Shown here: positions 267 through 24,218 of the stretch, piece after piece
Position numbering within the stretch: position 1 is the stretch's first letter
Layout: every line of letters begins with the position of its first letter
Assembly (NCBI GenBank): GCA_017403185.1
Contig: JAFQON010000007.1
Location: 1-64,000 of the forward strand
DNA length: 64,000 nt
Direction: 5' to 3'
Origin: Clostridia bacterium
GTDB taxonomy: Bacteria > Bacillota > Clostridia > Oscillospirales > Acutalibacteraceae
The notes under the pieces: model-generated
Database searches by the model: none
What the model saw: the letters and a program-made list of their open reading frames with translations, nothing else
What the model was told of the DNA's origin: nothing
Program-made: the position numbers and the translations under genes

Positions 267-827
267 ATGGCAACGGATTACCGCAAGCTTTGCATTGAAC
301 TTTTCGGAACAGATAATGTTGAAGAACTCAAAAAGATTGCAAACAAACAAAAAACAGGTCGGAAGAAAGCTTTGAATGATGCTGACATTCAGAAAATAAT
401 TGAAATGCAGCAGCAGGGAATAACAACGCAAGAGATTGCAGAAAGCTTCGGTGTCAGCCGTCAGACAATCTCAAAATATCTCAATGCATTCCCCAAGGGC
501 AACTACACGATGCGTATGAATTATATGTTCCGTCAGAAAGTCTGCACGGAAATCTACGTTGATTTCCTCAATGAAAAAATTTCAATCATCAACCGCACAA
601 ACGATATTCTCCGCCGTGCATTCGGTGTTATCGAAAATCCGACGTGGGAAGATTTTCAGTATTTCCTGCGTGAAAGATGTTTCCCCGAAGAGCGTGGCAA
701 CAAAAAAGAAATTCTGAAATATCTCGGCATTGACCATTTTGACCCGCTTCAGATTATTGAGGCTACCAAGGGCAGAATGGCAGAGGATAACCAATATATC
801 AACTTTGTCTATGAAAGCAGGTGTTGA
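267..827 (+). CDS. Helix-turn-helix DNA-binding protein, partner of HipA-like kinase
   Basis: This 186-residue protein carries a resolvase/Hin-type helix-turn-helix at about residues 38-73 (ITTQEIAESFGVSRQTISKY), preceded by a basic GRKKAL stretch. The C-terminal 110 residues match no family I can name and probably mediate dimerisation or kinase binding. The ATG at 267 follows GAGGTGAG at good distance. The stop is only three bases before the kinase start, so the two are translated together. The likely role is antitoxin/autorepressor of the pair, like HipB, although HipB has an XRE fold. It could instead be an ordinary regulator. The role is inferred; the HTH is clear. Confidence 0.7.
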   Translation: MATDYRKLCIELFGTDNVEELKKIANKQKTGRKKALNDADIQKIIEMQQQGITTQEIAESFGVSRQTISKYLNAFPKGNYTMRMNYMFRQKVCTEIYVDFLNEKISIINRTNDILRRAFGVIENPTWEDFQYFLRERCFPEERGNKKEILKYLGIDHFDPLQIIEATKGRMAEDNQYINFVYESRC

Positions 828-830
828 TTT

Positions 831-1643
831 ATGAACAACAAAACAATAACAACCAAACCTGTAAAAATGATTACGGATTCATCTTCAAAAGGCAATCAGC
901 CTAAATGGTACGGTGATGGCTTATGGTTCAAAGCTGACCATATGGGATATGAAGGCCTGAGTGAAATTGTTATCTCAAAGCTTCTTGCAAAAACAAATAT
1001 CCGTAATTTTGTAACTTATCTTCCGACCTTTATCGAATACGAAGGCAAAAAACTTGTCGGGTGTTACTCTGAGAATTTCAAGAAAGATAACGAAACAATT
1101 TACACACTCGAAAAGCTTTTCAGAGCATATACAGGTCAGTCTCTGGCAAAGGCATTGCTTGACTATCCCGAAGAGAAAGACAAAATAAAGTTCACCGTTG
1201 ATTTTATCGAAAAGCACACCAATCTTGAAAACGTTGGTGTATATTTGACGGCTATGCTTGAACTCGATGCGTTCTTCCTCAATGAGGACAGACACACAAA
1301 CAACATTGCTTTTATCAGAAACGATGACACCGAAGAATTCAGCTTATGCCCCTATTTTGATTTCGGATTTTCGCTTTTATCCGATACCAACGATTATCCG
1401 ATTGATGCGGATATTTATGAATGCATCTCAAAAGTAAAAGCAAAACCGTTTGATACAGATTTCGATTTGCAGATGGATTCAGCAGAAGAACTCTACGGAG
1501 TTCAGCTTGCAATCGGTTTTACAGAAAACGATATTGCCAATGCGGTTGATAAATGCAAAGAGTATTATGACGAAACAATCCGCAACCGTGTGAAAAACAT
1601 TCTTCGTGTAAGAAGAAATAAGTTTAAATATCTGATAAAATAA
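831..1643 (+). CDS. HipA/CtkA-like serine/threonine kinase
   Basis: This compact 270-residue protein has the motifs of HipA-fold kinases. A candidate ATP-binding lysine, Lys34, lies in WFKAD. The catalytic loop NEDRHTNN (151-158) contains Asp153 and Asn158. The metal-binding PYFDFGFSLL segment contains Asp177. It lacks the N-terminal subdomain of E. coli HipA (about 440 residues) and is closer in size to short CtkA-type kinases. Family members phosphorylate translation factors or tRNA synthetases; the target here is unknown. It starts three bases after the HTH gene and ends just before a hairpin terminator. A toxin role with the HTH protein as antitoxin is inferred from context. Confidence 0.75.
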   Translation: MNNKTITTKPVKMITDSSSKGNQPKWYGDGLWFKADHMGYEGLSEIVISKLLAKTNIRNFVTYLPTFIEYEGKKLVGCYSENFKKDNETIYTLEKLFRAYTGQSLAKALLDYPEEKDKIKFTVDFIEKHTNLENVGVYLTAMLELDAFFLNEDRHTNNIAFIRNDDTEEFSLCPYFDFGFSLLSDTNDYPIDADIYECISKVKAKPFDTDFDLQMDSAEELYGVQLAIGFTENDIANAVDKCKEYYDETIRNRVKNILRVRRNKFKYLIK

Positions 1644-1697: not shown

Positions 1698-3698
1698 TCA
1701 GGACATTTCTTTTGGAGCTACTGCAGTATTTGTTTCTTGTGCACTTACAATTTCATTAGCTGTTTGTGCTTCGGTTTGTAGTTTGTCTCGCTCCATTTCT
1801 AAAATTTTTGTTAAATGGTTATATCTTAATTCGAAATCTGCAAACACTTCACTCCATGTTTTAACATAGATTTTATAATTATTCACCTTAAACACTAATG
1901 ATTTTTCTCCGTGATGTTCGTTGTTTTTCAGTTCGTTATCCATATAACCATTGCTGTTAAATTTGTTGCCGACAAGATAGAATTCCCACGTCATATTAGG
2001 TGCATTAAACTGATCAACGCTTAAGATAACATTCATATACTTTTTGATCTGGCTTAACTGAGTTTCACCTAAAGAAACTTTTGGGTGCTTTAATTCAACT
2101 ACAATGTTATTAATTTTTCCGTTGGTAAAATCTTGTCTAACAGCAAAAATGTCCATTTGCTTTAATTTGTCAGGGTGATCTACACCGTCTTCTTCATACT
2201 CTTTATGCAGGTGATGCACATATCGCCTGAGAGCTTCGGAAAAATTAGGTTCAGCAGCAGTAACTAAATTGTATTGTTCTCCAAATAACCAATAATGTTT
2301 TTCTATCATTTTTTGAATATGATCAACTTCATTGGCTGCGAGTTCTTCTTCAAAAACCAGTCGTTTCAAATCATTAACGGCCTTATATCTGTCAGATAAA
2401 AGTTTAATGGTTTTAGTTATATTGGACAGTCGTGTGTATTTTAACATATCAGAGAGATCTTCTCTTTCTGTTTCATTCATATCCAATATTTCTTGAAGAA
2501 TGTTGAACAATGAGTCTATTTCTCCTGTTTGAACAATTAAATCAAGCAATCTAATAAATGTTTTCTTTTGTTCTTTGTTCATTGTTGAAGAAAACATTTT
2601 TGGTTGTACAATATATAGACAACCTATCATTTCTTCTATTTGAGATTTTCTGAATTCATCAAGAGGATTTCCTTCTCTGAAGTTCGGAAATGCTTCTAAC
2701 ACTTCTAATGATTCCACAACTTTTGAAACATGTTGTTTTAAAAATGGTTTTCTGATATCTAAAAGAATTTTATTAACTTCTTTTAAGCAGTATCTGAACT
2801 CATCACTTTGCTTGGTTTTAAGTGTCGGTCCAACAAGTGTAACTTGTTCAGGAAGCTCAGAAAAGCTGAAATTATCAAATAGATTACTTTTAATAAAGAC
2901 ACTATGATAAAAGCTGTCACCTTTGTTGTTAAAAGTAGTGTTTTCTTTTGCTATTTCTTCTCCGCTCGTTTTCAAATAGTAATATTTTGAATATTCAGCA
3001 AGCTTACTACTCCAGCAAACAAATGATGCATCAAAAGAAAATGATGTGTTTTCTATTTCAAATTTATGATCTTTTCTTTCGATAACTAAGTGTTCATAAG
3101 AAAGAGCTTCTCCGTTAACAAATATTTTGTAACCGTCATTTTTGTGTAACTCTAAATACCAACAAAACTCTTTAGCTAAAGACTGTTTGATAGACTCTAT
3201 TGAAAGTTCAGGATCATTTACATTATAGAATGAAACTTTTGTTCCGGTAGTGGTGTCTACTTCTGTTTCTTCAGATGCTTCATACGTATCGAGACTATCA
3301 GACATGGCTGTAATTTTATATTGATAATTCTTTCCTTCTTTTTCGTAAACCGTAACCCATTCCGCCATTGTTGCAAAAGTAAAAAAAGTTAATCTGCCGA
3401 CACCGTTTTTACCATGGGTTGCAGAATGTTTGATTTCGGGATCATAAACTTTTTCTGACTGAAAGAAGGGTTTGAATTTAGCTTTTAACAAATGGTTTTC
3501 AATTCCGTGTCCGTTATCAGCAACTGAAATCTCATATATTTTTTCTAATTCATTTATTGATGCGCTAATATATACTTGGGTAGCTTTAGCATCAAAACCG
3601 TTCCATATATATTCTGAAATTGATTTTAAAGATTTATATTTTCTAAGTGAGTTTTTTATGCCATTGGAAGTTATTTGAATATTGTCATATAATTTCAC
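1698..3698 (-). CDS. GHKL ATPase with C-terminal PD-(D/E)XK-like domain
   Basis: This 666-residue protein starts with GTG after AAGGTG. The N-terminal Bergerat fold shows an N box around EYIWNGFDAKA (29-39), DNGHGI (61-66), GKNGVGR (96-102) and a GTKVSF motif near residue 150, as in MutL/Hsp90/MORC ATPases. A helical middle follows. The C-terminal 170 residues resemble a restriction-like nuclease: EKHYWLFG, then Asp516 (MDIF) and Glu535-x-Lys537 (ELK), the PD-(D/E)XK pattern, similar to Shedu/DUF4263-type domains. The gene stands alone with its own promoter in the AT-rich island. The likely role is ATP-gated DNA cleavage in phage defence, which is inference. The ATPase fold is certain; the nuclease call is moderate. 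Confidence 0.75.
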   Translation of the reverse strand: MKLYDNIQITSNGIKNSLRKYKSLKSISEYIWNGFDAKATQVYISASINELEKIYEISVADNGHGIENHLLKAKFKPFFQSEKVYDPEIKHSATHGKNGVGRLTFFTFATMAEWVTVYEKEGKNYQYKITAMSDSLDTYEASEETEVDTTTGTKVSFYNVNDPELSIESIKQSLAKEFCWYLELHKNDGYKIFVNGEALSYEHLVIERKDHKFEIENTSFSFDASFVCWSSKLAEYSKYYYLKTSGEEIAKENTTFNNKGDSFYHSVFIKSNLFDNFSFSELPEQVTLVGPTLKTKQSDEFRYCLKEVNKILLDIRKPFLKQHVSKVVESLEVLEAFPNFREGNPLDEFRKSQIEEMIGCLYIVQPKMFSSTMNKEQKKTFIRLLDLIVQTGEIDSLFNILQEILDMNETEREDLSDMLKYTRLSNITKTIKLLSDRYKAVNDLKRLVFEEELAANEVDHIQKMIEKHYWLFGEQYNLVTAAEPNFSEALRRYVHHLHKEYEEDGVDHPDKLKQMDIFAVRQDFTNGKINNIVVELKHPKVSLGETQLSQIKKYMNVILSVDQFNAPNMTWEFYLVGNKFNSNGYMDNELKNNEHHGEKSLVFKVNNYKIYVKTWSEVFADFELRYNHLTKILEMERDKLQTEAQTANEIVSAQETNTAVAPKEMS

Positions 3699-3738
3699 CA
3701 GAACACCTTCTCAAATATTAATATAATTTAGTTTAATT

Positions 3739-3767
3739 ATTATATCACAAAACAAAACTTGTTTCAA
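3739..3767 (-). promoter_or_regulatory. Promoter of the GHKL ATPase gene
   Basis: Read on the minus strand, TTGAAA (3767-3762) and TATAAT (3744-3739) are separated by 17 bases and lie about 40 bases before the GTG start at 3698. Confidence 0.65.
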
Positions 3768-3844
3768 CATAAAGGATAATTGTAAAAATCAATCTCATAA
3801 AAAAATTTGAGCGAGAATTATAATGTTTATCGGATAAAACAATT

Positions 3845-3881
3845 AAAAGCTTTGTTCCTAAAATAAAAGAACAAAGCTTTT
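3845..3881. terminator. Terminator of the toxin-antitoxin-chaperone operon
   Basis: AAAAGCTTTGTTC pairs with GAACAAAGCTTTT as a perfect 13-bp stem. It lies 22 bases beyond the stop of the SecB-like gene and separates this operon from the GHKL gene. Confidence 0.8.
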
Positions 3882-3902
3882 GATTATGTAAAGATTTAGC
3901 AA

Positions 3903-4319
3903 TTAAACTTCGTCGAGTTTTTCCAACATTTTCACGATATTTACTGTTGGTAAAACAAGGGGTGTCTTATTAGCGTTTAAAGTCAACATAGAAATTGTAG
4001 AACGAAGATAAGGAAAAAGAATTGCAACTGAGTTTTTGTTTACAAGTGTATCATAATTCGAATCGGAACATTCGACTTCAAAATTGCCTGTTATAATTAC
4101 CTCCAAAGAAAACGGAAAAGGATTTTCTTCTGTTGGTTCAATTTTACATCCCAAAACAACACTGAATTTTTTATCGTCTTCAAATTTTATTTCACTCATT
4201 AATTCAGGCATAACATTATATGAATTGTTTGTGGATTCTTTATTTTCAAAAAACAAATGGTTAACAGTATAACCTTTAAACTGCAGACTTGAATTCATAT
4301 TGACGTTGTTGTTCTTCAT
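3903..4319 (-). CDS. SecB-like chaperone of a toxin-antitoxin-chaperone module
   Basis: I chose the ATG at 4319 over a longer frame because GGAGG (4332-4328) lies eight bases upstream. This gives 138 residues, the usual SecB size. The C-terminal half carries the SecB signature LFPYLRSTIS (101-110) followed by PLVLPTVNI (120-128). The gene overlaps the end of the antitoxin gene by 44 bases, so translation is coupled. Clostridia normally lack the export chaperone SecB. Together with the upstream MqsR/MqsA-like pair this indicates a TAC chaperone that folds and stabilises the antitoxin. The family assignment is strong; the antitoxin dependence is by analogy with studied TAC systems. Confidence 0.82.
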   Translation of the reverse strand: MKNNNVNMNSSLQFKGYTVNHLFFENKESTNNSYNVMPELMSEIKFEDDKKFSVVLGCKIEPTEENPFPFSLEVIITGNFEVECSDSNYDTLVNKNSVAILFPYLRSTISMLTLNANKTPLVLPTVNIVKMLEKLDEV

Positions 4320-4845
4320 ATGTGAATCCTCCAAAAAATAAATCTTTAATTCCATATGCTGTTGCATTTTGGTTGTTAAATAATAATTTTACTTCTCGTC
4401 CTGAAAGAATTTCCTCGATTTTTGCAATTTCCTCTGGTCTTAAAATGCTTTTCTGTTTTTCAAACAAAACTTTAAAATTATTAATGTTTTTTGCAAGAAG
4501 TATCAAATTGTTTTGAGCTGTATCTTGAATTGAACCATTTTCATATCTTGTAATTGTTTTTTCGCCAAGACCAAGAATTCTTGAAAAGGTGGATTGAGAA
4601 ATATTATAGTTTTCACGGATGAACTTGATATCACTTGATGTTAACAAGCCATGATTTTTCTTGTAAAGCTCATATGCTTTTATTAGATTGTTATTGTCCA
4701 ATTCTTCATTCCAAACTTTGGCATTGCAATTTTTGCAATAAGTTACCTCAGATTCAATTTCAATATCTTCTCCTCTGACAACAATTGTTTCGTGTTCTTT
4801 TTTTGTTTCAAAGTTGGTGTCATTATAGCAGTTTAGACAAATCAT
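4276..4845 (-). CDS. MqsA-like antitoxin, zinc finger plus XRE domain
   Basis: This 189-residue protein has the MqsA architecture. An N-terminal zinc-binding domain has Cys3-x2-Cys6 and Cys37-x2-Cys40. A central XRE helix-turn-helix at about 72-110 contains NISQSTFSRILGLGEKTITRY. The C-terminal extension of some 75 residues is longer than E. coli MqsA (131 residues). It could be the chaperone-addiction segment seen in TAC antitoxins, which makes folding depend on the SecB-like partner. The start at 4845 follows GGAGGG. It lies 18 bases after the toxin stop and overlaps the chaperone gene. It probably binds the toxin through the N domain and the operator palindrome at 5221-5234 through the HTH. 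Confidence 0.85.
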   Translation of the reverse strand: MICLNCYNDTNFETKKEHETIVVRGEDIEIESEVTYCKNCNAKVWNEELDNNNLIKAYELYKKNHGLLTSSDIKFIRENYNISQSTFSRILGLGEKTITRYENGSIQDTAQNNLILLAKNINNFKVLFEKQKSILRPEEIAKIEEILSGREVKLLFNNQNATAYGIKDLFFGGFTYEEQQRQYEFKSAV

Positions 4846-4863
4846 AAAATCCCTCCTTAAAAA

Positions 4864-5196
4864 TTATGGTTCATCAATATGAAAACTAAGTACCAAAAGG
4901 CTTTTGTTATTTTGATATAAAATTTTAAGTTTTATGTATATGGTTTCACCCATCATCCCTTTTTTAAATACCCAAAGATGATCATGTTGAGGAAAATCAC
5001 GATCGATTTCAGGGCCCTTAATATAGTTTGAAAACGATAATTCGTTAATCTCGTCAATAGCATCTTTCCATGTTATTCCAAGCTGTGCTAAAGTGTTAAG
5101 GTTTTTATCGCGATCAATAGGCGTATAATTTTTCTGCCTTATTGCATTTTTTACATCGCTTAAAAAAAGATCCACATCCCGTTTTGCACTCCTCAT
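4864..5196 (-). CDS. MqsR-like mRNA interferase toxin
   Basis: This 110-residue protein aligns by eye with MqsR-type RelE-fold toxins. It has an N-terminal helix with basic residues, the LGITWKDAIDEINELS segment, a GPEIDRDFP loop, HLWVFKK, an IYIKLKI strand and a C-terminal LLVLSFHIDEP. MqsR cleaves mRNA at GC-containing sites without ribosomes in E. coli; the specificity here is unknown. It is first in the operon toxin-antitoxin-chaperone, the order used by mqsRA and unlike most type II modules. The ribosome binding site is weak (GGGTGGG, six bases before ATG), which may keep toxin output below antitoxin output. Confidence 0.78.
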   Translation of the reverse strand: MRSAKRDVDLFLSDVKNAIRQKNYTPIDRDKNLNTLAQLGITWKDAIDEINELSFSNYIKGPEIDRDFPQHDHLWVFKKGMMGETIYIKLKILYQNNKSLLVLSFHIDEP

Positions 5197-5220
5197 ATAA
5201 TCCCACCCTTCAAATGATAG

Positions 5221-5261
5221 GTATCATATGATACTTTAGCAACTTTTTTCGATTTTGTCAA
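5221..5261 (-). promoter_or_regulatory. TAC operon promoter with 14-bp palindromic operator
   Basis: On the minus strand, TTGACA (5261-5256) and TAAAGT (5238-5233) are 17 bases apart. The perfect palindrome GTATCATATGATAC (5221-5234) touches the -10 box and the start site. This is where an MqsA-type repressor would act. The palindrome sequence differs from that of E. coli mqsRA. Confidence 0.7.
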
Positions 5262-5307
5262 GTAGGTAAACATATTATTGCACCTCTTTGTTTAAATAAT
5301 TCAAGCT

Positions 5308-7431
5308 TTAAACATTATTCTTTTTTGAAAGCCATTCAGAAAAAAGTTTATATATTTTATCAAGTTGTAAAATGTTAGAAGTAATTAAACCACCCCAACT
5401 TATTCCAAGAGCACTCATTTTATCTATATTAACCTTATATAAATGTGCTTCTCTAAATACAACTTCGTTTTCTTTTAAAAATTCAAAAATATTATTTTTA
5501 AGATAATCATCTCCGACGACAACAAAATCAATTTTTTCAGCATCTCTTGCAGGCATATCTTTTCCGTGTGTTCTAAAGCTGGACATGATTTTCCTTAAAG
5601 AATGAATAAAAATGTAAATATCGATTTTTGATGTGTCATTCGAATTATATTTAAAACGATTAAATTTCGGAAATTCATAAATGTTGGGGACATCAATTTT
5701 TATTTCGCCAGAATTGTTAAATGAGATGTTTAATGGAGGTGATTTTAAGGCTTTTATACTTGAAGAGCATTGTATGGTAGTGATACTTGGAGAAAAAGCG
5801 TTAATTAATAAATTTTTTGAATTAATAAGAAGATTGTTGCAAGCGATTGAAGAATCCGTAATTTGTGTGTTACCTTTTCCTCCAATTTTAATATCATTAT
5901 CAATGTTTATTGACATATTATTAATAGAATCAAAAATAAACATATTATCTATTACACTTACATTCATACAAACTGTATCGATAAGGTCCTTCCCTTTAAA
6001 CATTCTAAATGTGGCAACAGTTTCGTTTGAATCTTGACTAATGTCTATGTAAATTTGATGACCAGAACTGATTTTTGATTTGTATGCTTCTAATAAATAA
6101 GAAAAATGCTTACTTTTTATTGTTTTATTGTTTAGATCTATGTAATGATTCCAGAAAAGTTGAGAAGGGAAATGAGATGTTGAGCTTTCTGATTGGTAAT
6201 ATAATTCTGCGCTGTCTTCATATTCATCATCAAGAATTATTCTTGCCAAACAGTAATCCCTAAACGCTGGTCCTGCAAAATCTATATTAGTCTCCGTTTC
6301 GTTAGTACAAAACATTTGTACAAAAGGATGCTGTGGAATAAATAGAGCAATTGTTTCCTCATAGTCATCGACTAAATAATCCGGCAAAGAAGCCAACTGA
6401 TAGTCTTTATATGAAATTTCTCCTAAAATGATATAGTTTATTATTCTGACTAATTGCTCCTTAGCACTATAAATCTCTGACCACTTATTTATTTTGTTTT
6501 TATCACTATTAATTCTTTCTTTAAACGCAGAAACAAATTTATTCTGTTCTCGTTCAAGAAGATTTTCCATTATTGTTTTAATTAAAGAAATTTCGTCAGA
6601 TTTTTCTTGCAAATTGCTTATAAGGCGTGCAGTATTAGAGATTTCGGTAATGTGTGTTGCAATTGCCTCCAAAACAGGTGCATAGCCCAAGAACTTATTT
6701 AATGTTTCTTTGTCACTAATTAATGCTTTTACTTGCATAAAATATCCATCAACGCAATCCACGATAGCTTTAGTTAATTCTTTTCTTTTTTCAGCAGTTC
6801 TTAAAACAAAATCTCTTGCGTTGGTTTCAGGAAAGTAGTCGATTTCTAAATGCTTAAACGGAATTTCATTTGCAGTAAAAAATGTTGCTATGTTCTGTGC
6901 GGTTTCTGTTCTTGAAAGTAGAACAATAGAGCAACAGATTGAATCTTCTAAAAACTCATTTGCTTCGTAAAGAAAAGTCTCAATATTTTTTCTACCTGAA
7001 ATTATTTCCGCCTCGTCAAAAGCATCAATTATTAAAGTTGATTTACCAAGTTTTAGTTTTTGGGCATACTCCGAAATTTTTGATGCACCTAAAGCTTTGT
7101 AAAGTGTTCCTTGGAACGTTCCATCTCCTATGTGTAAATCAGCTAAATTCCAGTAAAGTGCTTTTTTGATATATGCCAAATACTTTCCGAATGCGCTTTT
7201 GCCTGTTGCTCCGGGAGCAGAAACAATAACAAATTTAGGGTTAAGTTTTATATCGATTTGTTTAAAATTTGTACCAATATAAAACGGAGCTTCGTTAATC
7301 TGTTTTACAGACTTGTGAGCTGAATCCAAAAGTTTTACAGGAGAATCTCCTTTTATGTCAGTTAACACTCTTTCTAATGTCATAAAAACAATCCTTTTCT
7401 TTTCTAATAAATAATTGTGAATATTGTACAT
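5308..7431 (-). CDS. STAND/NACHT-like P-loop NTPase
   Basis: This 707-residue protein starts at 7431, seven bases after GGAGG. Walker A is GATGKS (74-79) and Walker B is LIIDAFDEAE (133-142), followed by VLLSRTE, a sensor-like segment near 175. The DAFDEAE form and a later FAGPAFRDYCLARI segment resemble NACHT/STAND NTPases, where a winged-helix follows the ATPase. The C-terminal 250 residues lack recognisable LRR, WD40 or TPR units. A beta-rich stretch with repeated Asn/Ser/Ile may be a sensor. It is the last gene after the MurF-like ligase and the two-TM protein, 116 bases downstream. STAND proteins in such islands often sense phage proteins; that role is inferred. Confidence 0.7.
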   Translation of the reverse strand: MYNIHNYLLEKKRIVFMTLERVLTDIKGDSPVKLLDSAHKSVKQINEAPFYIGTNFKQIDIKLNPKFVIVSAPGATGKSAFGKYLAYIKKALYWNLADLHIGDGTFQGTLYKALGASKISEYAQKLKLGKSTLIIDAFDEAEIISGRKNIETFLYEANEFLEDSICCSIVLLSRTETAQNIATFFTANEIPFKHLEIDYFPETNARDFVLRTAEKRKELTKAIVDCVDGYFMQVKALISDKETLNKFLGYAPVLEAIATHITEISNTARLISNLQEKSDEISLIKTIMENLLEREQNKFVSAFKERINSDKNKINKWSEIYSAKEQLVRIINYIILGEISYKDYQLASLPDYLVDDYEETIALFIPQHPFVQMFCTNETETNIDFAGPAFRDYCLARIILDDEYEDSAELYYQSESSTSHFPSQLFWNHYIDLNNKTIKSKHFSYLLEAYKSKISSGHQIYIDISQDSNETVATFRMFKGKDLIDTVCMNVSVIDNMFIFDSINNMSINIDNDIKIGGKGNTQITDSSIACNNLLINSKNLLINAFSPSITTIQCSSSIKALKSPPLNISFNNSGEIKIDVPNIYEFPKFNRFKYNSNDTSKIDIYIFIHSLRKIMSSFRTHGKDMPARDAEKIDFVVVGDDYLKNNIFEFLKENEVVFREAHLYKVNIDKMSALGISWGGLITSNILQLDKIYKLFSEWLSKKNNV

Positions 7432-7547
7432 TTGTATTCCTCCAGTAAATTCTATAATCTGATTTAATAATACTATACATTATTTGCAGATATAGACGAA
7501 AACTGAAAGGATATGTTATATCAATGTTGTGTGCAGGAACTGTGAAT

Positions 7548-8495
7548 CTAATCTTCGCTATTTGTAATAATTTTCACATAGTATATTTTGTTTTGTTCTG
7601 ATAATGCTTTCTCAAAAATAAAAGCTTGAGAATCATTATCATACTCAAATTTACCATCAACAAAATGTTCGTTTGTTTTTGGGTTAAGTGAATTTAATGA
7701 TACTACCGAGTTTTTAGTTAAAATTTGTCCATCTGTACGAACAATAATATTTAATTTTTGTATGTTTTCAGCAAAATTTTTGGGGTCAATTAACAAAAAG
7801 TCAAAAGTAGGATTAAAACACTGGGGCCAACAGTATTTAAGTTTTATTTTAAATTCATTGTTTGGCGATATGGGCGTTGTAAATTCCATTTTTAAAAGAT
7901 GAAAAGTAGCAGAACTAAACTTTGGTACATCTTCAACGTTCATTTTGTTTCTGTCAGCACAAAGTTTATTTATTGCAAGATCGCATTTTTTGAGATTTTC
8001 ACAACAAGAGTTGTTTTCTTTACAAGAGAAAGCTTCGATTTTTAAGTGTTTAAAATCGGTACTACTGTCTCCTCCAATTCGTTGATATATTTTGTCTAAA
8101 TTTTCATTGGAAATATTTATACCTTCATGTATCCACAAAACCTCTAAATCATTATGTCTTTTTTTCTTAATCTCATTAATAAGACGTATATCTAAGGTTA
8201 ATCTATTTAGTTTGCATTTATTGTTTTTATATTCATCCGGTATATCTTTTGAAATATAGTTCACTATTCCATACAAAGGATAGTTTGAATTAAGTGTTGC
8301 TTTATAAAATTTCAGTTCTGAATTTGTTTTTTTATACTTTAATCTAAAGTAGACAACAAAAGAGACCAACAGTGCTATCACAAAAATAGCTAAAATATGT
8401 ATCGTTTTACCATTTATATAGGAAAATATACTTAATAATATAGCTAAAGTCCAGTCAATAATATGATATATAAAATCTATGCTTTTATTGTTCAT
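7548..8495 (-). CDS. Two-TM membrane protein of unknown function
   Basis: I do not recognise this 315-residue protein. Two hydrophobic segments near residues 13-47 (around WTLAILLSIFSY and ILAIFVIALLVSF) form a membrane hairpin. A soluble domain of about 260 residues follows. It contains a cysteine-rich stretch near 158-176 (Cys-x5-Cys-Cys-x4-Cys) and a beta-rich C-terminus. The gene lies nine bases after the MurF-like gene and upstream of the STAND NTPase on the same strand, so it belongs to that operon. A membrane-anchored effector or scaffold would fit, but only the topology is visible. Confidence 0.6.
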   Translation of the reverse strand: MNNKSIDFIYHIIDWTLAILLSIFSYINGKTIHILAIFVIALLVSFVVYFRLKYKKTNSELKFYKATLNSNYPLYGIVNYISKDIPDEYKNNKCKLNRLTLDIRLINEIKKKRHNDLEVLWIHEGINISNENLDKIYQRIGGDSSTDFKHLKIEAFSCKENNSCCENLKKCDLAINKLCADRNKMNVEDVPKFSSATFHLLKMEFTTPISPNNEFKIKLKYCWPQCFNPTFDFLLIDPKNFAENIQKLNIIVRTDGQILTKNSVVSLNSLNPKTNEHFVDGKFEYDNDSQAFIFEKALSEQNKIYYVKIITNSED

Positions 8496-8504
8496 ATTTT
8501 CACC

Positions 8505-9992
8505 TCAAAAAATCTTTTCACTTAAAATATGGGGAGCGATTAGTTCCATGCGCATTGCTCCCGAACCTTTAATGTAAATTGCGGTGTTTTCATCGACACC
8601 TATTTCAAATAAGGTTTCCAATATATCTTCGTATTCATAAAAAGAATGGATATTTTGGGGAATAACATTATGTACATTTGTTGCAATATAAAAAGCAGCT
8701 TCGCCTAATGTTATCAAGTGGGAAATATCACAATTAGTAGAAATGTATTCTCCAACTCGTTTGTGTTCGCTTTCAGTATGAACGCCAAGTTCCATCATAG
8801 AGCCTAAAATTACGATCTTTTTTTTGTGGCTTAATGAGGAAAAATATTCTAACCCGTTTTTAATAGAAGAGTAGTTGGCGTTATAAGAGTCTAATAATAT
8901 AAACGAATTGTTAATCCCTTTAAAACCTTGAAATCTACCAAGAGGTGATTTGATTTTTGAAATTCCTTTTAGAATATCATCATATTCATAATTACATTCT
9001 TTAGCGAAGTAAAGTGAGAAAAGCAGTGCATATATTGTGCCTTTGCTTGGAGAGCTTATTGTGAAATTTCCATAATCTTTTTTTGAGATATTTAGATTGA
9101 AATTTAATAAATTATAATCGCCAACAGCAGAAATGTTACTAACGACTATATCTGACCAATTATAATTAATTCCAATCGAATAGATTTTGTCATTGTTTAT
9201 GCTTCTGCTCCAATTGATCAAATTTTCGTCGTCCCCATTAATTATGCACTTTCCGTTTTTATTCATAAAATCGTATATTTGAGTTTTTTCTTTTATAATT
9301 GATTCTGTACTGTTGAATCTACTGTAATGCGATAGATTTATTGCTGTTATTATTGAGTAGTCTGGCTGTGCTATATTGCAGAAGTTTTTTATCTGGTTTT
9401 CTGCATCTAATTGCATTTCTACAATTAAAAAATCGTCATCTATGCAAAGGTTTTGAATAATGTCTATACACATACCTAAAACAGAATTTCTTATTCGATG
9501 TATTCTTTTCACTCGGTACTTTACTGACAAAAAGTTATATAAAGCTATTGTGGTAGTTGTTTTTCCTGTGCTTCCTGTTATGGCGATTACTTTTGCTTTT
9601 GATTTACTTAAATATTTTTTGGTAATATCAATAATTAATTGAAGGCAGTCATCGACTAAAATGAAACGAGTAGATTGGTTTTGGCGTATGTGTTTTATGT
9701 CATCGACAATAATTATTGAAGCATTGTTTTTAATGGCTAAATCAATCTTATCCATAGTATTGATGTTTCCGCCCAATCCAAAAACGCTGTCTTCATTGTT
9801 TGTAAAACCTAACCCTCCATCGGTTTTTGAATATTTTGTGCTATCAATAGAAATAAAGACAGATCCATTATTTACTCTTTCAGCAAAAATACAAAAACGG
9901 AGTTCGTTCATATTTAATAACCATTGATATTGTTTTTTGTTTGTGCTCAAAAGATCATACAGTTCTAATCCAGAAATAAATATTCTATTCAC
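8505..9992 (-). CDS. MurF-like Mur ligase
   Basis: The start is the GTG at 9992, eight bases after AAGGAGG; a longer TTG frame has no such site. The 495 residues follow the MurF plan. They show P-loop GSTGKTTT (140-147), SRFNSTESIIKEKTQIY (224-240), INGDDENL, GRFQGFKG (352-359), DSYNANYSS (368-376) and GSMMELG (397-403). MurF joins D-Ala-D-Ala to UDP-MurNAc-tripeptide. Here the loop that usually carries His/Asn before the third region reads SKGTIYALL, so it has diverged. Its operon contains no other wall gene but a two-TM protein and a STAND NTPase. It may add a peptide to another acceptor, or be an altered wall enzyme. The ligase family is sure, the substrate is not. Confidence 0.8.
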   Translation of the reverse strand: MNRIFISGLELYDLLSTNKKQYQWLLNMNELRFCIFAERVNNGSVFISIDSTKYSKTDGGLGFTNNEDSVFGLGGNINTMDKIDLAIKNNASIIIVDDIKHIRQNQSTRFILVDDCLQLIIDITKKYLSKSKAKVIAITGSTGKTTTTIALYNFLSVKYRVKRIHRIRNSVLGMCIDIIQNLCIDDDFLIVEMQLDAENQIKNFCNIAQPDYSIITAINLSHYSRFNSTESIIKEKTQIYDFMNKNGKCIINGDDENLINWSRSINNDKIYSIGINYNWSDIVVSNISAVGDYNLLNFNLNISKKDYGNFTISSPSKGTIYALLFSLYFAKECNYEYDDILKGISKIKSPLGRFQGFKGINNSFILLDSYNANYSSIKNGLEYFSSLSHKKKIVILGSMMELGVHTESEHKRVGEYISTNCDISHLITLGEAAFYIATNVHNVIPQNIHSFYEYEDILETLFEIGVDENTAIYIKGSGAMRMELIAPHILSEKIF

Positions 9993-10150
9993 ATTTTTAA
10001 CCTCCTTAAAAATTAATCTATATATATATGACAAAAATCGCGAAATGTTACGCAAAAATTTTTAGAAAATTGCTTGTTTTCTTTAGTTTCTCTGTTTTAG
10101 ACAAAATTCGACATTACAATTTGTACACAATCACAATGAATTAAACGCAG

Positions 10151-10203: not shown

Positions 10204-10776
10204 TTATTCGTATATATACCCCTCAATAGGATGAATGGTAATTACATCGCCGGTATTTATATCTTTAAAAACTTTGGCAATGGCAAACGAACGACGGTCT
10301 AATTGTTTTTCTATCAGCAAAGCCACTTCATAAACCAAAAGACATTCATCAAGTTTTTCAAACTCACGGATGCCATCAGTCATCTCATAACCGCATTCGC
10401 AGCAATCGCTTTTTTCTATATATCCGAAAGCATATTTCTGATAAACGAGATTGAACTCAAACGACAAGATTATATCTTTGTATGTTTCAAGAAAGCATAT
10501 AGATTCATCAACATCGAAAGTTCTGTCGAGAGCAACGAATACGGAGTTTACGGTTGCATTTTCATCGGGTTTCTGTATAGTTTTATATACCTGGATATGA
10601 CCCCAATAAGCTTTTAAATCATCCTTAAACTGTTCGGGGCAACCGTCTGCCGTGTATTCAATCTGAATGCCAATGGTCATATTTTCAGTATTCGTATTAT
10701 CCATAAGCTGTTTTAAATCTTTTAATTTATCTATAAAGAAACTCCGTGTGTCAGAATCTTGTTTTGCCTTGCTCAT
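10204..10776 (-). CDS. Hypothetical protein, coupled to upstream gene
   Basis: The ATG at 10776 follows GGGGAGG, giving 190 residues. I do not recognise the family. The sequence is acidic, with no signal peptide or membrane segment. It contains a CCECGYE cysteine cluster that might bind metal. The start codon overlaps the stop of the preceding gene in ATGA, so the two proteins are made in fixed ratio and may interact. A strong terminator follows. Confidence 0.6.
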   Translation of the reverse strand: MSKAKQDSDTRSFFIDKLKDLKQLMDNTNTENMTIGIQIEYTADGCPEQFKDDLKAYWGHIQVYKTIQKPDENATVNSVFVALDRTFDVDESICFLETYKDIILSFEFNLVYQKYAFGYIEKSDCCECGYEMTDGIREFEKLDECLLVYEVALLIEKQLDRRSFAIAKVFKDINTGDVITIHPIEGYIYE

Positions 10777-11264
10777 CTTACCAACCCTCCCCAGAGGCGA
10801 GAACAAACGGGAATGGATTTATCTTTGATTGAATTATCGTAAAGAACCAAGATAAGATCTATGTTTCTGTTTTCTTTTTGCGTTGAAGATAATTTCTTTA
10901 AAGCCGCTTCAGCTTTCTTTTCAGAATCATATTCACCGATAATGTTTTCGTATTTGAAGAGTATTTCGTTTTCATTTCCTTCGGGGTTTTCGGTATAAGC
11001 GATTATGTATTTTCCGACAAGATTTATTTTAGCGGAAAGGTAACATCCGTTTGAGAATGTTAAGTTATGGATAAAAGCAAATTCTTCTTCGCTGAAATAA
11101 CGGATATATAATGTGTAGGGTTTTCTTTCAACAGGCAGATCGGAAATCAAATCCCGATCCATTTCGTAAAACTCAAAGTTATTTGTTTTGAAAAACTCCA
11201 CGAGTAATTTATATTTTTCTTCATCGAGTGTTGCTGCAACGGCAAAGGTATCTTTTAAAAGCAT
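10773..11264 (-). CDS. Hypothetical cytoplasmic protein
   Basis: I chose the ATG at 11264, preceded by GAAAGGA, over a longer frame that runs into a palindromic region. The 163 residues contain no motif I can name: an N-terminal helical MLLKDTFAVAATLDEEKY, then mixed alpha/beta with aromatic residues. It is the first gene of a two-gene operon with 10204-10776. No signal peptide or TM segment is seen. Confidence 0.55.
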   Translation of the reverse strand: MLLKDTFAVAATLDEEKYKLLVEFFKTNNFEFYEMDRDLISDLPVERKPYTLYIRYFSEEEFAFIHNLTFSNGCYLSAKINLVGKYIIAYTENPEGNENEILFKYENIIGEYDSEKKAEAALKKLSSTQKENRNIDLILVLYDNSIKDKSIPVCSRLWGGLVR

Positions 11265-11304
11265 ATTTTTTATTCCTTTCTGTTCGGTAGTTTTTTTGCA
11301 CAAA

Positions 11305-11335
11305 GAGCGCAGCCGTTGGGATAACGGTTGCGCTC
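11305..11335. repeat. Palindromic hairpin upstream of the hypothetical operon
   Basis: GAGCGCAGCCGTT pairs with AACGGTTGCGCTC (one G-T pair) around a five-base loop. There is no T-run on either strand, so it is not a normal terminator. It lies in the 210-base gap between the secreted protein and the hypothetical operon. Confidence 0.5.
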
Positions 11336-11393
11336 TGAGCACAAGGAGAAAAATGCAATTGTTTGTATTGACAACCCTTTTGAGTGAGGGGTC

Positions 11394-11420
11394 GGGCATC
11401 TCTATGTCCGAAAGATGCCC
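11394..11420. repeat. Second inverted repeat in the same gap
   Basis: GGGCATCT and AGATGCCC form an 8-bp stem with an 11-base loop, 54 bases past the stop of the secreted protein. It could protect the end of that mRNA or be part of a small repeat element together with the hairpin at 11305. Confidence 0.4.
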
Positions 11421-11473
11421 GTTGAGCCTCATAATCAAATGGAGGGTTGAAAAAGTTTATTGTTGCGTGCAGC

Positions 11474-13228
11474 TTATGCTGCAAAAGCGCCTGTGATGAA
11501 AGCTGCTATTTTAGCAAACCAAGAGCAAATCACATCAAATATGTATTTGATGAAAAGCGAGAAATTGAATTTATAGGTTGCTTCAAGTTCAATATCATTG
11601 TCGGGCATAATTGTGCTGATTGATTCAGCGGAGCGCTGTTCATCGGAGAGGGTTATACCTGATTCATTTACCCAGCCTGTAAACTCATAATAAGGCTTTT
11701 CGTGAGCGGGAGCGTTGATTGTAACGGTATCACCATACTTATATGTAACGGGTTCCAGACCAACAACTTTAACATTATGCTGAAGCTTAATGTCATCAGC
11801 AACAGCGGTAACCTTTGTTACTTTATAGGGATCGTTTTCAGCTTCGTTATAAACGATTTCGTAGGTGTAAACGCCGCTCTTATCCTGTTTTACTGCAAAT
11901 GTTTCATTGAACTTAACGCCTTCAATTGTGCCGGATTCTTTACCATCAATGAAGTATTTAACATCAAAATCGCCGTTAAGATGATATGTGTCGCCGCCTT
12001 CGATATAAATCTGCTTGCCGCCTACAACATCTTTTACTTTGAGTTCGAGTTCAAGCTGATTAACAATAACTTTGAATTTGAGTGTTCCGCCTTCAAAGTT
12101 TGAATTATTAACTGATACTTTCACTTCATATTCATGTGAGCCGGGAGTGATGAGCTTGCCATAATCTTCTGTGTCTGAGTAATTGAAAGATGCTGAAACA
12201 TTAAGATATTCCTTGAGATAACCGTTAAGGTCATCGCCAACTTTGTAACCGTAGGGAAGAGTGATTTCGGGAACGATTTCTTCGCCGGATTCATCAACAA
12301 ACTTTACTGTGCCTTTGTTAACTGTTACGGGAATTGTAAATGAATACGGAAGAGCTGCTTCGGGGTCTGCTGGTGTGAAAACTATAGGAAGGTTATGATT
12401 ACCTACTGTAGGAGTAATATCCTTATATACTTCGTCTACGGCAAATGTGCCTTCAACCTCTGTGCCTTCAACTGCTAAAACAGCTTTTCCACCTATAATT
12501 TTTACATCTTTCCATGTAAGTTTGGAATTATATGAAAAATTGGCTATTGTAGGTGTTTCTACAATTGTTGTTTCGGGAATTTCGCCTGCTATACGCACAT
12601 AAACCTGTGCCGTTGTAACTGTATAACCAACAGGTATAAACTTAGCTTCATAATATCCGCTTTCGTTAACAATAGTGTCTGGTTTTGACCACTCCCATGT
12701 TCGTGCTAAAATGTTAGGTTCTTCAGCATTGTATGGGTTTATCATTGTTCCGCCAGTAAGAGTTGAAGTTCTGAGAGTTGCACCAGCTTCAACTTCTGTA
12801 GCAACAATAGGATCGTTTACTTCATCAGCAAAAACAGGTGTTGTTTCAATTACTGTGTAAACGATAACACTTCTCGATTTATTAAAACCAGCATATGTAT
12901 TTTCATCGTCAGGAACAAATTTTATTGTTGCTTTAATATTGCTACCAACAGTAGGAATACCGGCAGGATTTTTGAATTCAAAGTGTCCTGCAACTTGGTT
13001 TCCACTTGCATCTAAAACGATTTCATCGTCATTAATTGTAATAGCTTCTTCAAATGTCTGACCGTAGAAAACTGATTCTTGATTATTGTTATACACATAT
13101 GTTGGCCATTGGGTAACATTAGTGGCTGTAAGCGCAACAGGTTCAGTAGCAAAAACAAGTGGTGCTGAAACAGCAAGCATTAAAACAGCAAGGATAACTG
13201 ACAAGGCTCTGCTAAAAGTTTTTTTCAT
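11474..13228 (-). CDS. Large secreted surface protein with InlB-type C-terminal repeat
   Basis: The 584-residue protein begins with a clear signal peptide (MKKTFSRALSV, a hydrophobic core, cleavage near VFA-TEP). Several Ig-like beta modules of 80-90 residues follow, with recurring forms such as VGSNIKATIKFVPDDENTY and VGNHNLPIVFTPADPEA. Near residue 500 it has a bacterial-repeat/InlB-B type segment (YKYGDTVTINAP, EFTGWVNE). It ends with a hydrophobic tail (IKYIFDVICSWFAKIAAF) that may anchor it or take part in assembly; no LPxTG is present. GAAAGGAATG precedes the ATG. A motif 280 bases upstream matches one before the adjacent ECF sigma gene. An extracellular or adhesive role is inferred. 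Confidence 0.75.
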   Translation of the reverse strand: MKKTFSRALSVILAVLMLAVSAPLVFATEPVALTATNVTQWPTYVYNNNQESVFYGQTFEEAITINDDEIVLDASGNQVAGHFEFKNPAGIPTVGSNIKATIKFVPDDENTYAGFNKSRSVIVYTVIETTPVFADEVNDPIVATEVEAGATLRTSTLTGGTMINPYNAEEPNILARTWEWSKPDTIVNESGYYEAKFIPVGYTVTTAQVYVRIAGEIPETTIVETPTIANFSYNSKLTWKDVKIIGGKAVLAVEGTEVEGTFAVDEVYKDITPTVGNHNLPIVFTPADPEAALPYSFTIPVTVNKGTVKFVDESGEEIVPEITLPYGYKVGDDLNGYLKEYLNVSASFNYSDTEDYGKLITPGSHEYEVKVSVNNSNFEGGTLKFKVIVNQLELELKVKDVVGGKQIYIEGGDTYHLNGDFDVKYFIDGKESGTIEGVKFNETFAVKQDKSGVYTYEIVYNEAENDPYKVTKVTAVADDIKLQHNVKVVGLEPVTYKYGDTVTINAPAHEKPYYEFTGWVNESGITLSDEQRSAESISTIMPDNDIELEATYKFNFSLFIKYIFDVICSWFAKIAAFITGAFAA

Positions 13229-15625: not shown

Positions 15626-15685
15626 TACACCAAATTTCGCGAGGCGATAAAACCGTATACAGAAATTTTGAAGAAAGGAGAAATT

Positions 15686-16840
15686 ATGCACGTAGAAAAG
15701 TTTCATAAGAATGTTGCAGGAGTTATGCTTGACCACATCGGCAGAAGCGATTCCAAAAGGAATTGTAAAAGAAGCAACGAAAACATTGACCCCGAACGCA
15801 CACATCTCAACTATAATATTGCAGCCGAAATTCAGCCTCTTCCGCAAACAGTTTTTCTGAAGAAGCGTCTTGGAGAAATCAAAGTTCACGGTAACGCAAG
15901 CGTCCATTTTTTCAGTTGGGTAGTTACTGCTCCGAAAAATCTGCCCGAAAGTGAACACGAAGAATTTTTCAAGGCTTGCTTTGATAAATTTTGTAATACA
16001 TACGGAAAAGAGAATATTATTTCATGCTTCGTACATCGCGATGAAACATCAGAACATTTTCATTGTGCAATAATTCCGGCAAAAAGAACAGACAAAGGCG
16101 AAAAGCTTTGTGCAAAGGAAGTTATTACAAGAAATCATCTTCAGAAAGCACATGAGGAAATGGAAGAATATGTTTCTGCACGGCTTGGACATCATGTTGA
16201 TATTCTCAACGGAGCGACAAAAGAGGGTAACAAATCTCTTGCCGATTTCAAAAGAGGCAAAGCAAAAGAAGATATAGAAAATGCAAAAACACAAGCCGAT
16301 AAAATCGTATCAGAAGCTAAAAACGAAGCCAAACAGATTAAAGCCGAACAAAATGCAGGTTTGCTTGAATATGAAGCGAAAATGGGTTTTGTCAATAAGT
16401 TAACCGATGAGATAAACGGATTTGATTTAAGCCGTGTCAGAGAGCATCAGCCAACCATTTCCGATCCCGAACACTATTACAAAGTTCCGCCCGATGTTTT
16501 GCGCACGCAGTTTGTTTCAAAATCCGTTTTAAACGGGTTTAAAGAGATAAACGAAACTTATGTTGAAAGTATTGAAAAAACGGCTGAAATCGAGAAAGAG
16601 AACAAGAAATTAAAGAGAGAAAATATACAACTGCGTGAAAGAAAGAAGTTTCTTGAAGATGCTTTGGAAAAAGCCAGAAGATATATAGAGAGAATAAATA
16701 AGGTTTTGAATATACTTAATGAAAAAATCCCCAACCTGCGGGAGCTGTTCACAAAAGCCGTTTCGCAGGTGAAAAGAGAAGAAAATTATGAGGATATACC
16801 CACAAGTTCATTTGCAGAAGATTATCCCGAAAGGGATTGA
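15686..16840 (+). CDS. mobV: MobV/Pre family relaxase
   Basis: The ATG at 15686 follows AAAGGAG, giving 384 residues. Motif I is NENIDPERTHLNY (31-43). The metal-binding histidine motif is HRDETSEHFH (117-126) with His117, His124 and His126, then CAIIPA. From about residue 210 the protein is a long charged coiled coil, as in Pre/Mob proteins. It should nick oriT and pilot the single strand during mobilisation by a helper conjugation system; no mating-pore genes are present. The last 12 codons are duplicated at 17598-17640, beyond the RelBE cassette. Confidence 0.9.
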   Translation: MHVEKFHKNVAGVMLDHIGRSDSKRNCKRSNENIDPERTHLNYNIAAEIQPLPQTVFLKKRLGEIKVHGNASVHFFSWVVTAPKNLPESEHEEFFKACFDKFCNTYGKENIISCFVHRDETSEHFHCAIIPAKRTDKGEKLCAKEVITRNHLQKAHEEMEEYVSARLGHHVDILNGATKEGNKSLADFKRGKAKEDIENAKTQADKIVSEAKNEAKQIKAEQNAGLLEYEAKMGFVNKLTDEINGFDLSRVREHQPTISDPEHYYKVPPDVLRTQFVSKSVLNGFKEINETYVESIEKTAEIEKENKKLKRENIQLRERKKFLEDALEKARRYIERINKVLNILNEKIPNLRELFTKAVSQVKREENYEDIPTSSFAEDYPERD

Positions 16841-22270: not shown

Positions 22271-24004
22271 TTGAATATTTTTGAAGTTCAAAAACTTCTT
22301 ATTAAGGGCATAAGAATACAGGATATTCCTATGAGAGTTACATTCTATGCCCGTGTTTCAAGTGAAAAAGATGAACAGTTGAATTCTCTTGAAAACCAGG
22401 TTTCATATTATGAAAATCTTATTAAATCGAACCCGAAATGGAAATATGTAGAAGGATACATCGATGAGGGCATTTCGGGTAAAAGTACGAAGAAAAGAGT
22501 AAGCTTTAACAAGATGATATCCGATGGCAAAAACGGTCTGTTTGATTTCGTTATTACTAAAGAAATATCCCGTTTTGCCCGTAATACGGTTGACAGTCTT
22601 AATTACACAAGAGACCTTCTTGAATGTGGAGTAGGTATTTATTTTGAGAGTAACAACATCAACACCTTTGACCAAAGCTCGGAATTTGTGTTAAGCCTTA
22701 TGTCGTCAATCGCCCAGAATGAACTCAGAGTTCTTTCCGAAAGAGTAAAATTCGGTCACGCACAAGCTATTGAAAAAGGTGTTGTTCTCGGCAACAGCAG
22801 AATATTCGGCTATGACAAGCTTAAAAAACGTCTTGTTATCAATCCTGATGAAGCTCCGATGGTTGTTGAACTTTACGAGCTTTATGCGACAGGCGATTAC
22901 AGCATGAAACAGATTGAGAATATCTTTTGGACCAAAGGGTATCGCAACAGAAACGGCAATAAAATCGCACACAGCACATTGGCAAATATAATCGCAAACC
23001 CCAAATACAAGGGTTATTATGTTGGAGGTAAGGTAAAAAATCTTGACTTGTTCAGCGAAAAAAGAGAGTTTGTTCCCGAAGAGGAATGGACCATGTATAA
23101 AGACGAAACAGGTGAAATCGTTCCTGCCATTGTTGACGAAGAACTTTGGGAAAGGGCTAATTTCATTCTGAAAAAACGCAGCAATGATGTGAAAAACCGT
23201 CAGGGCATCTGCAATCACGCAAATCTTCTGACCGGTAAAATTGTATGCAAAAACTGCGGTTCACCTTATTACAGAAAAGACAGCGTTGACAAAAGCGGCA
23301 ACAAGAATTCAAAATGGATTTGCAGCGGCAAAATAAAAAACGGCAAAGAATACTGTAATTCCTTTGCAATCTATGAAAGCGAAATTAAAAAGGTGCTTTA
23401 CGAAACATTTAAAGACACAACTGAAGACATCGAAAGAATCATCGACGAGTACACGCAGATGCTTTGGGAGATTATGAAGGACGACGGTCTCGAAAAAGCC
23501 CTTGAAAGAGCAGAAGAGCAAAAAGACAAGCTCTACAAGAAAAAAGCAAAGCTTCTTGATCTTTATGTTGACGAAGCCTATACCGAAGCTGAATTCAAAA
23601 AATTGAACGCAAGCAACTCAAAAGAGATTGAAAAGGTTGAGGCTGAAATTGAAGATTTAAAGAAACAGCTTGAATCCGACGCAGGTTTCAAGGACAGCAT
23701 TGAAGAAATTAAATCTTCGCTTGTTAGTGCGGCAAAGGTCGCATCCGAAGGCTTGATTACGAAGAATTTTATCGACAAATATGTTGATAAGATATTTGTG
23801 AGCGTCGAGAATGACTCTCACGCAAAAATCGAAATCAAGCTTGTAACGGGCGAAACAACCGAAAAATATCTGCTTAAACTCAAGGCAAGACAAAGGGCTG
23901 AAATCGTTGATATTACTGCGATTCAGGGCTCTGAAACCTGTAACTGTCGTACGGGTCATACATCTAAGAAGATGATCGAGGCTTATGAAAACGGCATGAA
24001 ATAA
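22271..24004 (+). CDS. Large serine recombinase (integrase)
   Basis: The TTG at 22271 is preceded by AGGAG; an ATG at 22331 is an alternative. The 577 residues carry the resolvase domain with catalytic Ser30 in FYARVSSEKDEQ, the conserved ITKEISRFARN segment, and the recombinase domain (GDYSMKQIENIFWTKGY). A zinc ribbon (CKNCG ... WICSG ... YCNS) and a long coiled coil (about 400-480) follow. Such enzymes integrate and excise elements at short att sites without cofactors and use Xis-like factors for excision. It sits next to the right end, as usual. It ends before a strong hairpin. Confidence 0.93.
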   Translation: MNIFEVQKLLIKGIRIQDIPMRVTFYARVSSEKDEQLNSLENQVSYYENLIKSNPKWKYVEGYIDEGISGKSTKKRVSFNKMISDGKNGLFDFVITKEISRFARNTVDSLNYTRDLLECGVGIYFESNNINTFDQSSEFVLSLMSSIAQNELRVLSERVKFGHAQAIEKGVVLGNSRIFGYDKLKKRLVINPDEAPMVVELYELYATGDYSMKQIENIFWTKGYRNRNGNKIAHSTLANIIANPKYKGYYVGGKVKNLDLFSEKREFVPEEEWTMYKDETGEIVPAIVDEELWERANFILKKRSNDVKNRQGICNHANLLTGKIVCKNCGSPYYRKDSVDKSGNKNSKWICSGKIKNGKEYCNSFAIYESEIKKVLYETFKDTTEDIERIIDEYTQMLWEIMKDDGLEKALERAEEQKDKLYKKKAKLLDLYVDEAYTEAEFKKLNASNSKEIEKVEAEIEDLKKQLESDAGFKDSIEEIKSSLVSAAKVASEGLITKNFIDKYVDKIFVSVENDSHAKIEIKLVTGETTEKYLLKLKARQRAEIVDITAIQGSETCNCRTGHTSKKMIEAYENGMK

Positions 24005-24140: not shown

Positions 24141-24218
24141 ACTATGTTAAGAAAGTGTTTTTTAAGGATACTTTACATCGTTTTATCCGCTTTTCAGGCG
24201 GCAAAAGGAGTTACATAT

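Follow-up and report, generated by a model that had tools for sequence, protein, structure and literature searches.

A STAND NTPase and a MurF-like ligase pair as probable separate modules in the defence cassette of a mobile element from a Clostridia bacterium

We analysed a stretch of 64,000 nucleotides (hereafter the window) that begins at base 1 of contig C38 (JAFQON010000007.1) in a Clostridia bacterium assembly judged to be 80.3% complete. An original prediction, made from the sequence letters, had proposed that three of its genes form an undescribed immune operon. These genes encode a MurF-like Mur ligase, a cysteine-rich protein with two transmembrane (two-TM) segments and a NACHT-like NTPase of the STAND type. 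Our analysis suggests that they are probably two neighbouring modules in the defence cassette of a mobile element, one being the STAND NTPase and the other the ligase together with the two-TM protein. This reading rests mainly on relatives of the STAND gene, which were found apart from both partners at all 54 loci examined. The arrangement of the genes is confirmed by the open reading frames (ORFs). All three are on the minus strand in the order listed below, separated by 9 and 116 bases, and a stretch resembling a ribosome binding site precedes each of them.

8505..9992, minus strand: divergent MurF-like Mur ligase of 495 amino acids (aa), with a GTG start behind AAGGAGG; assigned from Pfam and NCBIfam matches
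7548..8495, minus strand: two-TM protein of 315 aa, with GAGGTG upstream, 9 base pairs (bp) after the ligase gene; assigned from hydrophobicity and cysteine positions
5308..7431, minus strand: STAND (NACHT/nSTAND3-like) NTPase of 707 aa; assigned from invariant Walker A/B and GYAPVL residues and from the family matches of its relatives

When delimited mechanically, the ligase ORF extends to position 10055, and the family scans were conducted with this 516-aa version.

STAND relatives occur apart from the ligase and the two-TM protein

For the STAND protein of the window, Pfam, NCBIfam and PADLOC contain no model that matches at E ≤ 0.05, and there is one weak PHROG match (0.0058). Of its family, 31 members were scanned, and they give weak matches at the same threshold to NPHP3_N (16 members), AAA (10), nSTAND3 (7, the best at 2.6e-6) and NACHT (3), and there are scattered weak PADLOC matches among relatives. 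Walker motifs of the NACHT/STAND type are present, with G77-K78 of motif A and D136, D139 and E140 of motif B invariant in all 31 aligned members and G74 conserved in at least 90%. Stretches reading GYAPVL and HPF are likewise invariant. Judged by these motifs, the gene encodes a member of a NACHT/nSTAND3-like STAND family that is unnamed in the libraries searched, in agreement with the predicted NACHT-like NTPase, and relatives are carried by phages and plasmids.

The 54 STAND loci comprise 49 from genomes, two from plasmids and three from viral contigs, and two of them (L093 and L094) hold a partial STAND gene. The genome loci were collected from 84,980 species genomes by a scan with two patterns, drawn from a four-sequence alignment, and 49 is a lower bound because the scan used two patterns. 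A search of 391 genomes of the class found STAND relatives in two, namely the window's own and one that is 39% identical (L047, again among the 49), whose surroundings read as a defence-type region. Plasmids searched with the STAND protein by tblastn yielded three distant matches, of which two were examined, including one on an Alistipes plasmid, and H3 was left out. Viral contigs gave no match to a scan with the single protein and three to an alignment-based scan. On two of the latter (L100 and L101), the STAND relative (37% and 30% identical, respectively) reads as one gene among phage genes.

Searches by tblastn (E ≤ 0.01) found neither the ligase nor the two-TM protein at any of the 49 genome loci, and both are also absent from the two loci on plasmids and the three on viral contigs. 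Of the 49 genome loci, 37 have at least 2.6 kilobases (kb) of contig upstream of the STAND gene, which is room for both genes, and 41 have at least 1.1 kb. Moreover, of the 12 genome relatives nearest to the window protein (L047-L058, 29-39% identity), 11 are without a same-strand upstream ORF within 100 bp; within this group, L053 has a helix-turn-helix (HTH) protein 15 bp upstream. The proposal of a three-gene immune operon, for which related loci were searched for all three genes together, therefore finds no support at these loci. Given that its relatives occur without the ligase and the two-TM protein and as a lone gene among phage genes, the STAND protein most likely acts in defence on its own.

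A divergent MurF-like ligase

The ligase belongs to the Mur ligase family according to its matches to Pfam Mur_ligase_M (3e-19) and Mur_ligase_C (3.8e-13), and it groups with MurF, the UDP-MurNAc-tripeptide:D-Ala-D-Ala ligase, both by family models and by PDB matches (e.g. 1gg4 and 3zm5). It matches the NCBIfam murF model (TIGR01143) at 2e-69 with 234.6 bits, short of the curated cut-off of 288.6. We aligned it with 34 canonical MurF rows (35 loci were tried, and L039 yielded no row). It keeps 42 of the 69 columns that are at least 90% conserved and has changed the other 27, and a second alignment of 30 distinct rows gives 43 of 73 columns kept. In common with MurF, it retains the P-loop residues K144/T145, along with E192, H222, K236, R353 and D368, to which we presumptively assign the catalytic roles of the family. 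Also kept are the YNA and MxELG motifs, the KGS end motif and a MurF-like C-domain.

Unlike MurF, the window ligase is situated outside a dcw cluster and has a divergent N-domain with an insert. The D(S/T)R motif of this domain, which we take to be part of the site for the uridine diphosphate (UDP) side of the substrate, is lost (F/E at positions 36/38, with D and R present in all 34 canonical rows). The GxHN..N block, whose residues presumably make nucleotide contacts (G-x-H-N-x-x-N), reads SKGT..A, compared with canonical frequencies of 34/34 for G, 31/34 for H, 30/34 for the first N and 29/34 for the second. Finally, the canonical KGSR is KGSG. Thus, the predicted family holds, and the description of full MurF-type motifs does not.

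As originally suggested, this ligase is not an ordinary host murF, given identities of 24-28% to six murF proteins of its genus and order. Every one of the 18 congeners searched has a murF match (17 above the cut-off and one a fragment). In a set of 30 genomes that includes the window's own, a murF match at E ≤ 1e-40 is present in 29, and one above the cut-off in 25. If the ligase were the host's own murF, relocated into the element, this would account for the lack of any other murF above the cut-off in the window's assembly. However, the same incomplete assembly also lacks a murE above the cut-off, and the murF matches in all congeners, the low identity and the changed columns leave this explanation scarcely credible. 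Because congeners have murF, identity is low, and the assembly is incomplete and missing murE as well, we consider the ligase a divergent, probably acquired paralogue and the absence of a host murF most likely an assembly gap. When the genome was searched with murF, murE and Mur_ligase_M, the ligase was the only match on contig C38, and so the window has no second Mur ligase. To this extent, the predicted absence of other peptidoglycan genes nearby is upheld; for wall genes other than Mur ligases, it extends to the ten window ORFs scanned.

Relatives of the ligase were sought more widely. In a search of 398 genomes of the phylum, at least 340 match the ligase at E ≤ 1e-20, and the best besides the window is 33% identical among the matches listed. 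Three of these phylum matches (L122-L124) were viewed over a wider stretch, and the surroundings of all three read as dcw clusters. The N-domain has no match in plasmids, and 15 of 391 class genomes, the window counted, match it at E ≤ 0.01; the best two (L118 and L119) read as dcw murFs, and the weaker L120 and L121 showed nothing relevant. Mur matches from the phage collection (L125-L127) lie, by our reading, among ordinary chromosomal genes. Viral contigs revealed no ligase relative in scans with the protein, with an alignment including staphylococcal ligases or with a fragment, and such pattern scans detect close relatives only.

Staphylococcal plasmids, including pWBG759, carry a 'Mur ligase family protein' that resembles the window ligase in its derived residues, its loss of the D/R pair and its location on mobile DNA. 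These enzymes (L003-L005) differ in being about 680 aa long with a C-terminal extension, in having a 538-aa neighbour in place of the two-TM protein and in sharing 28-30% identity with the window ligase. Of 73 conserved MurF columns, 37 are altered in the staphylococcal ligases, 30 in the window ligase and 22 in both, an overlap with a hypergeometric P of 0.0012, which is optimistic because columns are not independent. Eight of the 22 shared columns carry the identical residue (including S224, F226, S316, G318, S326 and N379), although one of the eight is not found in every staphylococcal copy. A tree unites the window ligase with the staphylococcal ligases inside the MurF rows (97/91) with a long-branch warning; once either is omitted, the other takes the longest branch and its position is unstable.

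In L004 and L005, the ligase follows the 538-aa gene, which has no Pfam family and is annotated in one copy as a glucosyltransferase. Upstream of this gene, L005 has an SdrD-like surface gene and L004 an ORF that, by our reading, encodes a surface protein; neither the 538-aa gene nor a surface gene is listed near the ligase of L003. This staphylococcal context favours the envelope over immunity, but weakly.

The two-TM protein

The predicted cysteine-rich two-TM protein is recognisable from two hydrophobic stretches, in windows that cover residues 6-27 and 25-55, and from eight cysteines in 315 aa, five of which are between residues 158 and 179. About 260 residues follow the hydrophobic stretches, and this large C-terminal part is presumably cytosolic. 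The protein has no family above cut-off in Pfam, NCBIfam, PADLOC or PHROG, no ligand-binding domain was recognised, and PDB offered no convincing relative. Among 198 related genomes, the window itself was the only match, and there was none in plasmids, none in phages at E ≤ 1 and no pattern match in viral contigs. The 398 phylum genomes returned the window and four matches of 18-21 bits that we took as noise, and L096, the sole one examined, holds no plausible relative. As far as sequence searches can tell, the protein is an orphan within these collections.

Neighbouring genes and the carrying element

The genes that surround the three are as follows.

4864..5196, minus strand: MqsR-like toxin (Pfam MqsR_toxin 4e-07, above cut-off)
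4276..4845, minus strand: MqsA-like antitoxin with HTH (Pfam MqsA_antitoxin 7.8e-10 and TIGR03830 1.3e-27, both above cut-off)
3903..4367, minus strand: SecB-like chaperone of the toxin-antitoxin-chaperone module (Pfam SecB 2e-10, above cut-off; PADLOC PD-T4-9_C 3.6e-19)
1698..3698, minus strand: GHKL ATPase, possible defence gene (HATPase_c_3 4.7e-16, above cut-off; HSDR_N_2 4.6e-4, below)
831..1643, plus strand: HipA-like protein (HipA_C 0.0018, below cut-off; PADLOC PDC-M03A 2.8e-9)
267..827, plus strand: resolvase-type HTH protein adjoining the HipA-like gene (HTH_7 1.8e-12)
15668..16840, plus strand: probable relaxase/mobilisation protein of the carrying element (relatives in two congeners)
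22271..24004, plus strand: probable serine recombinase beside lon at 24144-26630 (25% identical to a recombinase-like ORF in the congener G008)

Adjacent toxin-antitoxin-chaperone, HipA-like and GHKL-nuclease modules had been predicted. The MqsR, MqsA and SecB-like genes adjoin one another, and all three exceed their Pfam cut-offs, as expected of an MqsRAC module. The GHKL ATPase is likewise above its cut-off, whereas the HipA_C and HSDR_N_2 matches fall below theirs. For the GHKL protein, a nuclease part is weakly indicated, with a BbrUII/HgiDII-type match far under its cut-off. This protein also matches an unnamed phage family, phrog_6203, over nearly its whole length (1.5e-70).

The seven genes from 1698 to 9992 have a guanine-plus-cytosine (GC) content of 27-32%, compared with 37-41% in the two flanking genes on each side (37-41% in the HTH/HipA-like pair and 37% in the two genes at 10204-11438). 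A gene farther off, at 13638-14399, is again low in GC (32.5%). Because its seven genes share a GC content below that of both flanks, the one-strand stretch from 1698 to 9992 looks like a single acquired block of 8.3 kb. The two minus-strand ORFs at 10204-11438, upstream of the ligase, have no PHROG match, and the first of them has a weak Pfam match to DUF6853 that is below the cut-off.

The ORFs at 15668-16840 and 22271-24004, which we assume to be relaxase-like and serine recombinase-like genes, suggest an integrative mobilisable element. Its right end would presumably be at the recombinase gene beside lon, and its left end falls outside contig C38. Relaxase relatives are present in 3 of 119 genomes, the window's genome counted, and no block gene was found at E ≤ 1e-5 in stretches taken from the relaxase-bearing congeners G008 and G002. 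A mobile, defence-rich setting for the three genes is thus supported.

One system, two modules or an envelope cassette

Several observations weigh against dividing the three genes into two modules. GC content fails to split the STAND module from the ligase and two-TM module, and the 116-bp gap between the two-TM and STAND genes contains no promoter-like or terminator-like site, in a promoter scan that found 36 sites overall versus 40.4 in shuffles, which is no excess over chance. Twelve of the 49 genome loci are too short upstream to accommodate both genes. Other STAND relatives are closely joined to different genes, with six (L064, L072, L073, L077, L078 and L091) overlapping an upstream ORF by 4-8 bp. 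In two Bacteroidota metagenome-assembled genomes (L064:4402-8734 and L072:3735-7772), an AAA-type ATPase (AAA_21 in L064) and a protein of about 202 aa precede the STAND gene, which the latter protein overlaps by 4 bp. In two actinobacterial loci (L077:6818-9953 and L078:7018-10073), a protein of about 330 aa without a Pfam match overlaps its start. On an Acidithiobacillus plasmid (L008:3762-7959), genes for multiubiquitin, E1 (DUF6791-ThiF) and DUF6527 proteins are followed by the STAND relative as the fourth gene, and among 95 loci searched with these three proteins, L008 alone has such a ubiquitin-type partner. Because some members overlap or adjoin other genes, the family appears able to take partners, and the ligase pair could be another set. 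To this must be added that we saw no experiments on this STAND family in the literature, that the ligase tree bears its long-branch warning and that the staphylococcal ligases lack Arg353 and other residues kept by the window ligase.

These points can be read in favour of a single defence system, wherein the STAND protein would sense infection and switch on the ligase, which would tag a wall precursor or a protein at the membrane with help from the two-TM protein. The shared strand, short gaps, similar low GC and uninterrupted 116-bp junction are all consistent with such a system, and L008 offers an analogy in which the STAND gene is directly behind an operon for another ATP-dependent conjugation. 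However, neither partner accompanies the STAND gene at any locus examined, and all but one of the 12 nearest genome relatives lack tight linkage to a gene upstream. We regard a single system as improbable. From the ligase side, the searches found no close ligase relative and no two-TM relative.

A stronger competitor, although still rather unlikely in our judgement, is that the ligase and the two-TM protein form a cassette that modifies the envelope, take no part in phage immunity and lie beside defence genes by chance. The retained MurF-like C-domain and the surface-type genes near the closest non-canonical relatives on two staphylococcal plasmids speak for this explanation, as does the nearby ORF at 11474-13228, which we take to be a secreted surface protein. 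Against it, the pair is found inside a block otherwise composed of defence-type genes, and the lost N-domain motif makes the standard wall precursor an unlikely substrate. On balance, we favour two neighbouring modules within a defence cassette, where the ligase and two-TM pair may be a defence module of its own.

Comparison with known systems and possible function

Avs is one of the STAND proteins that serve in bacterial defence. Bacterial NACHT/STAND defence proteins such as bNACHT25 (PMC12169576) resemble the window's STAND protein in having a NACHT-like NTPase core and in often occurring solo on mobile DNA. The window protein is unlike the known examples in matching no PADLOC model, with scattered weak matches confined to its relatives. 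MqsRAC protected Escherichia coli against T2, and CmdTAC against T4 (PMC9519451). The window genes at 3903-5196 have the corresponding MqsR, MqsA and SecB-like parts, and this module adjoins the three genes and is not among them.

To our knowledge, no Mur ligase has been described as an immune enzyme, and none of the literature matches listed links Mur ligases to a dedicated phage-defence system. Mutation of MurT, a Mur ligase homologue, contributes to pneumococcal resistance to the phage SOCP (PMC4652380). An envelope-directed action of the ligase pair would fit both its enzyme family and this precedent.

The pair also bears comparison with Thoeris systems that use a TM-macro effector, in which an enzyme gene likewise adjoins a gene for a membrane protein, part of which presumably lies in the cytosol. 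There, nucleotide-driven clustering of the TM-macro ThsA is proposed to disturb the membrane (PMC11204291). By analogy, infection might lead the ligase to make an aminoacyl- or peptidyl-conjugate of a cellular carboxylate, which the cysteine-rich part of the two-TM protein would bind and thereby disturb the membrane, with the STAND protein as a second layer or sensor. Unlike Thoeris, however, the ligase pair has no TIR or macro domain in family scans and presents no evidence of a nucleotide signal, and we hold such a signalling pair to be very unlikely.

For the two modules that we favour, we infer the defensive action of the STAND protein, the chemistry and target of the ligase and the role of the two-TM protein as follows. 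The C-terminal half of the STAND protein would probably serve in sensing, with either a phage product or a disturbance of a host process as the trigger, whereupon the protein would oligomerise in an ATP-dependent manner and halt the infected cell. The ligase and the two-TM protein would be translated as a pair. Because the Mur residues for ATP and acyl-phosphate chemistry and the MurF-like C-domain are kept, the ligase probably couples a carboxylate with an amino acid or a dipeptide. Its acceptor is presumably not UDP-MurNAc-tripeptide, since the N-domain motif that we assign to the UDP side is lost. The two-TM protein would keep this reaction at the membrane or react there to what the ligase makes, and the likeliest outcome would be an altered envelope precursor or surface polymer.

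These findings detach a scattered STAND family from the ligase pair next to it, which need not be its partner, and so leave the STAND gene as a simple single-gene defence candidate. Members of the family also turn up on phage contigs and, in one case, after an operon for ubiquitin-like conjugation. The analysis further marks out a branch of Mur ligases carried on mobile DNA. Should the ligase pair turn out to protect against phages, a cell-wall enzyme fold would be serving a new purpose.

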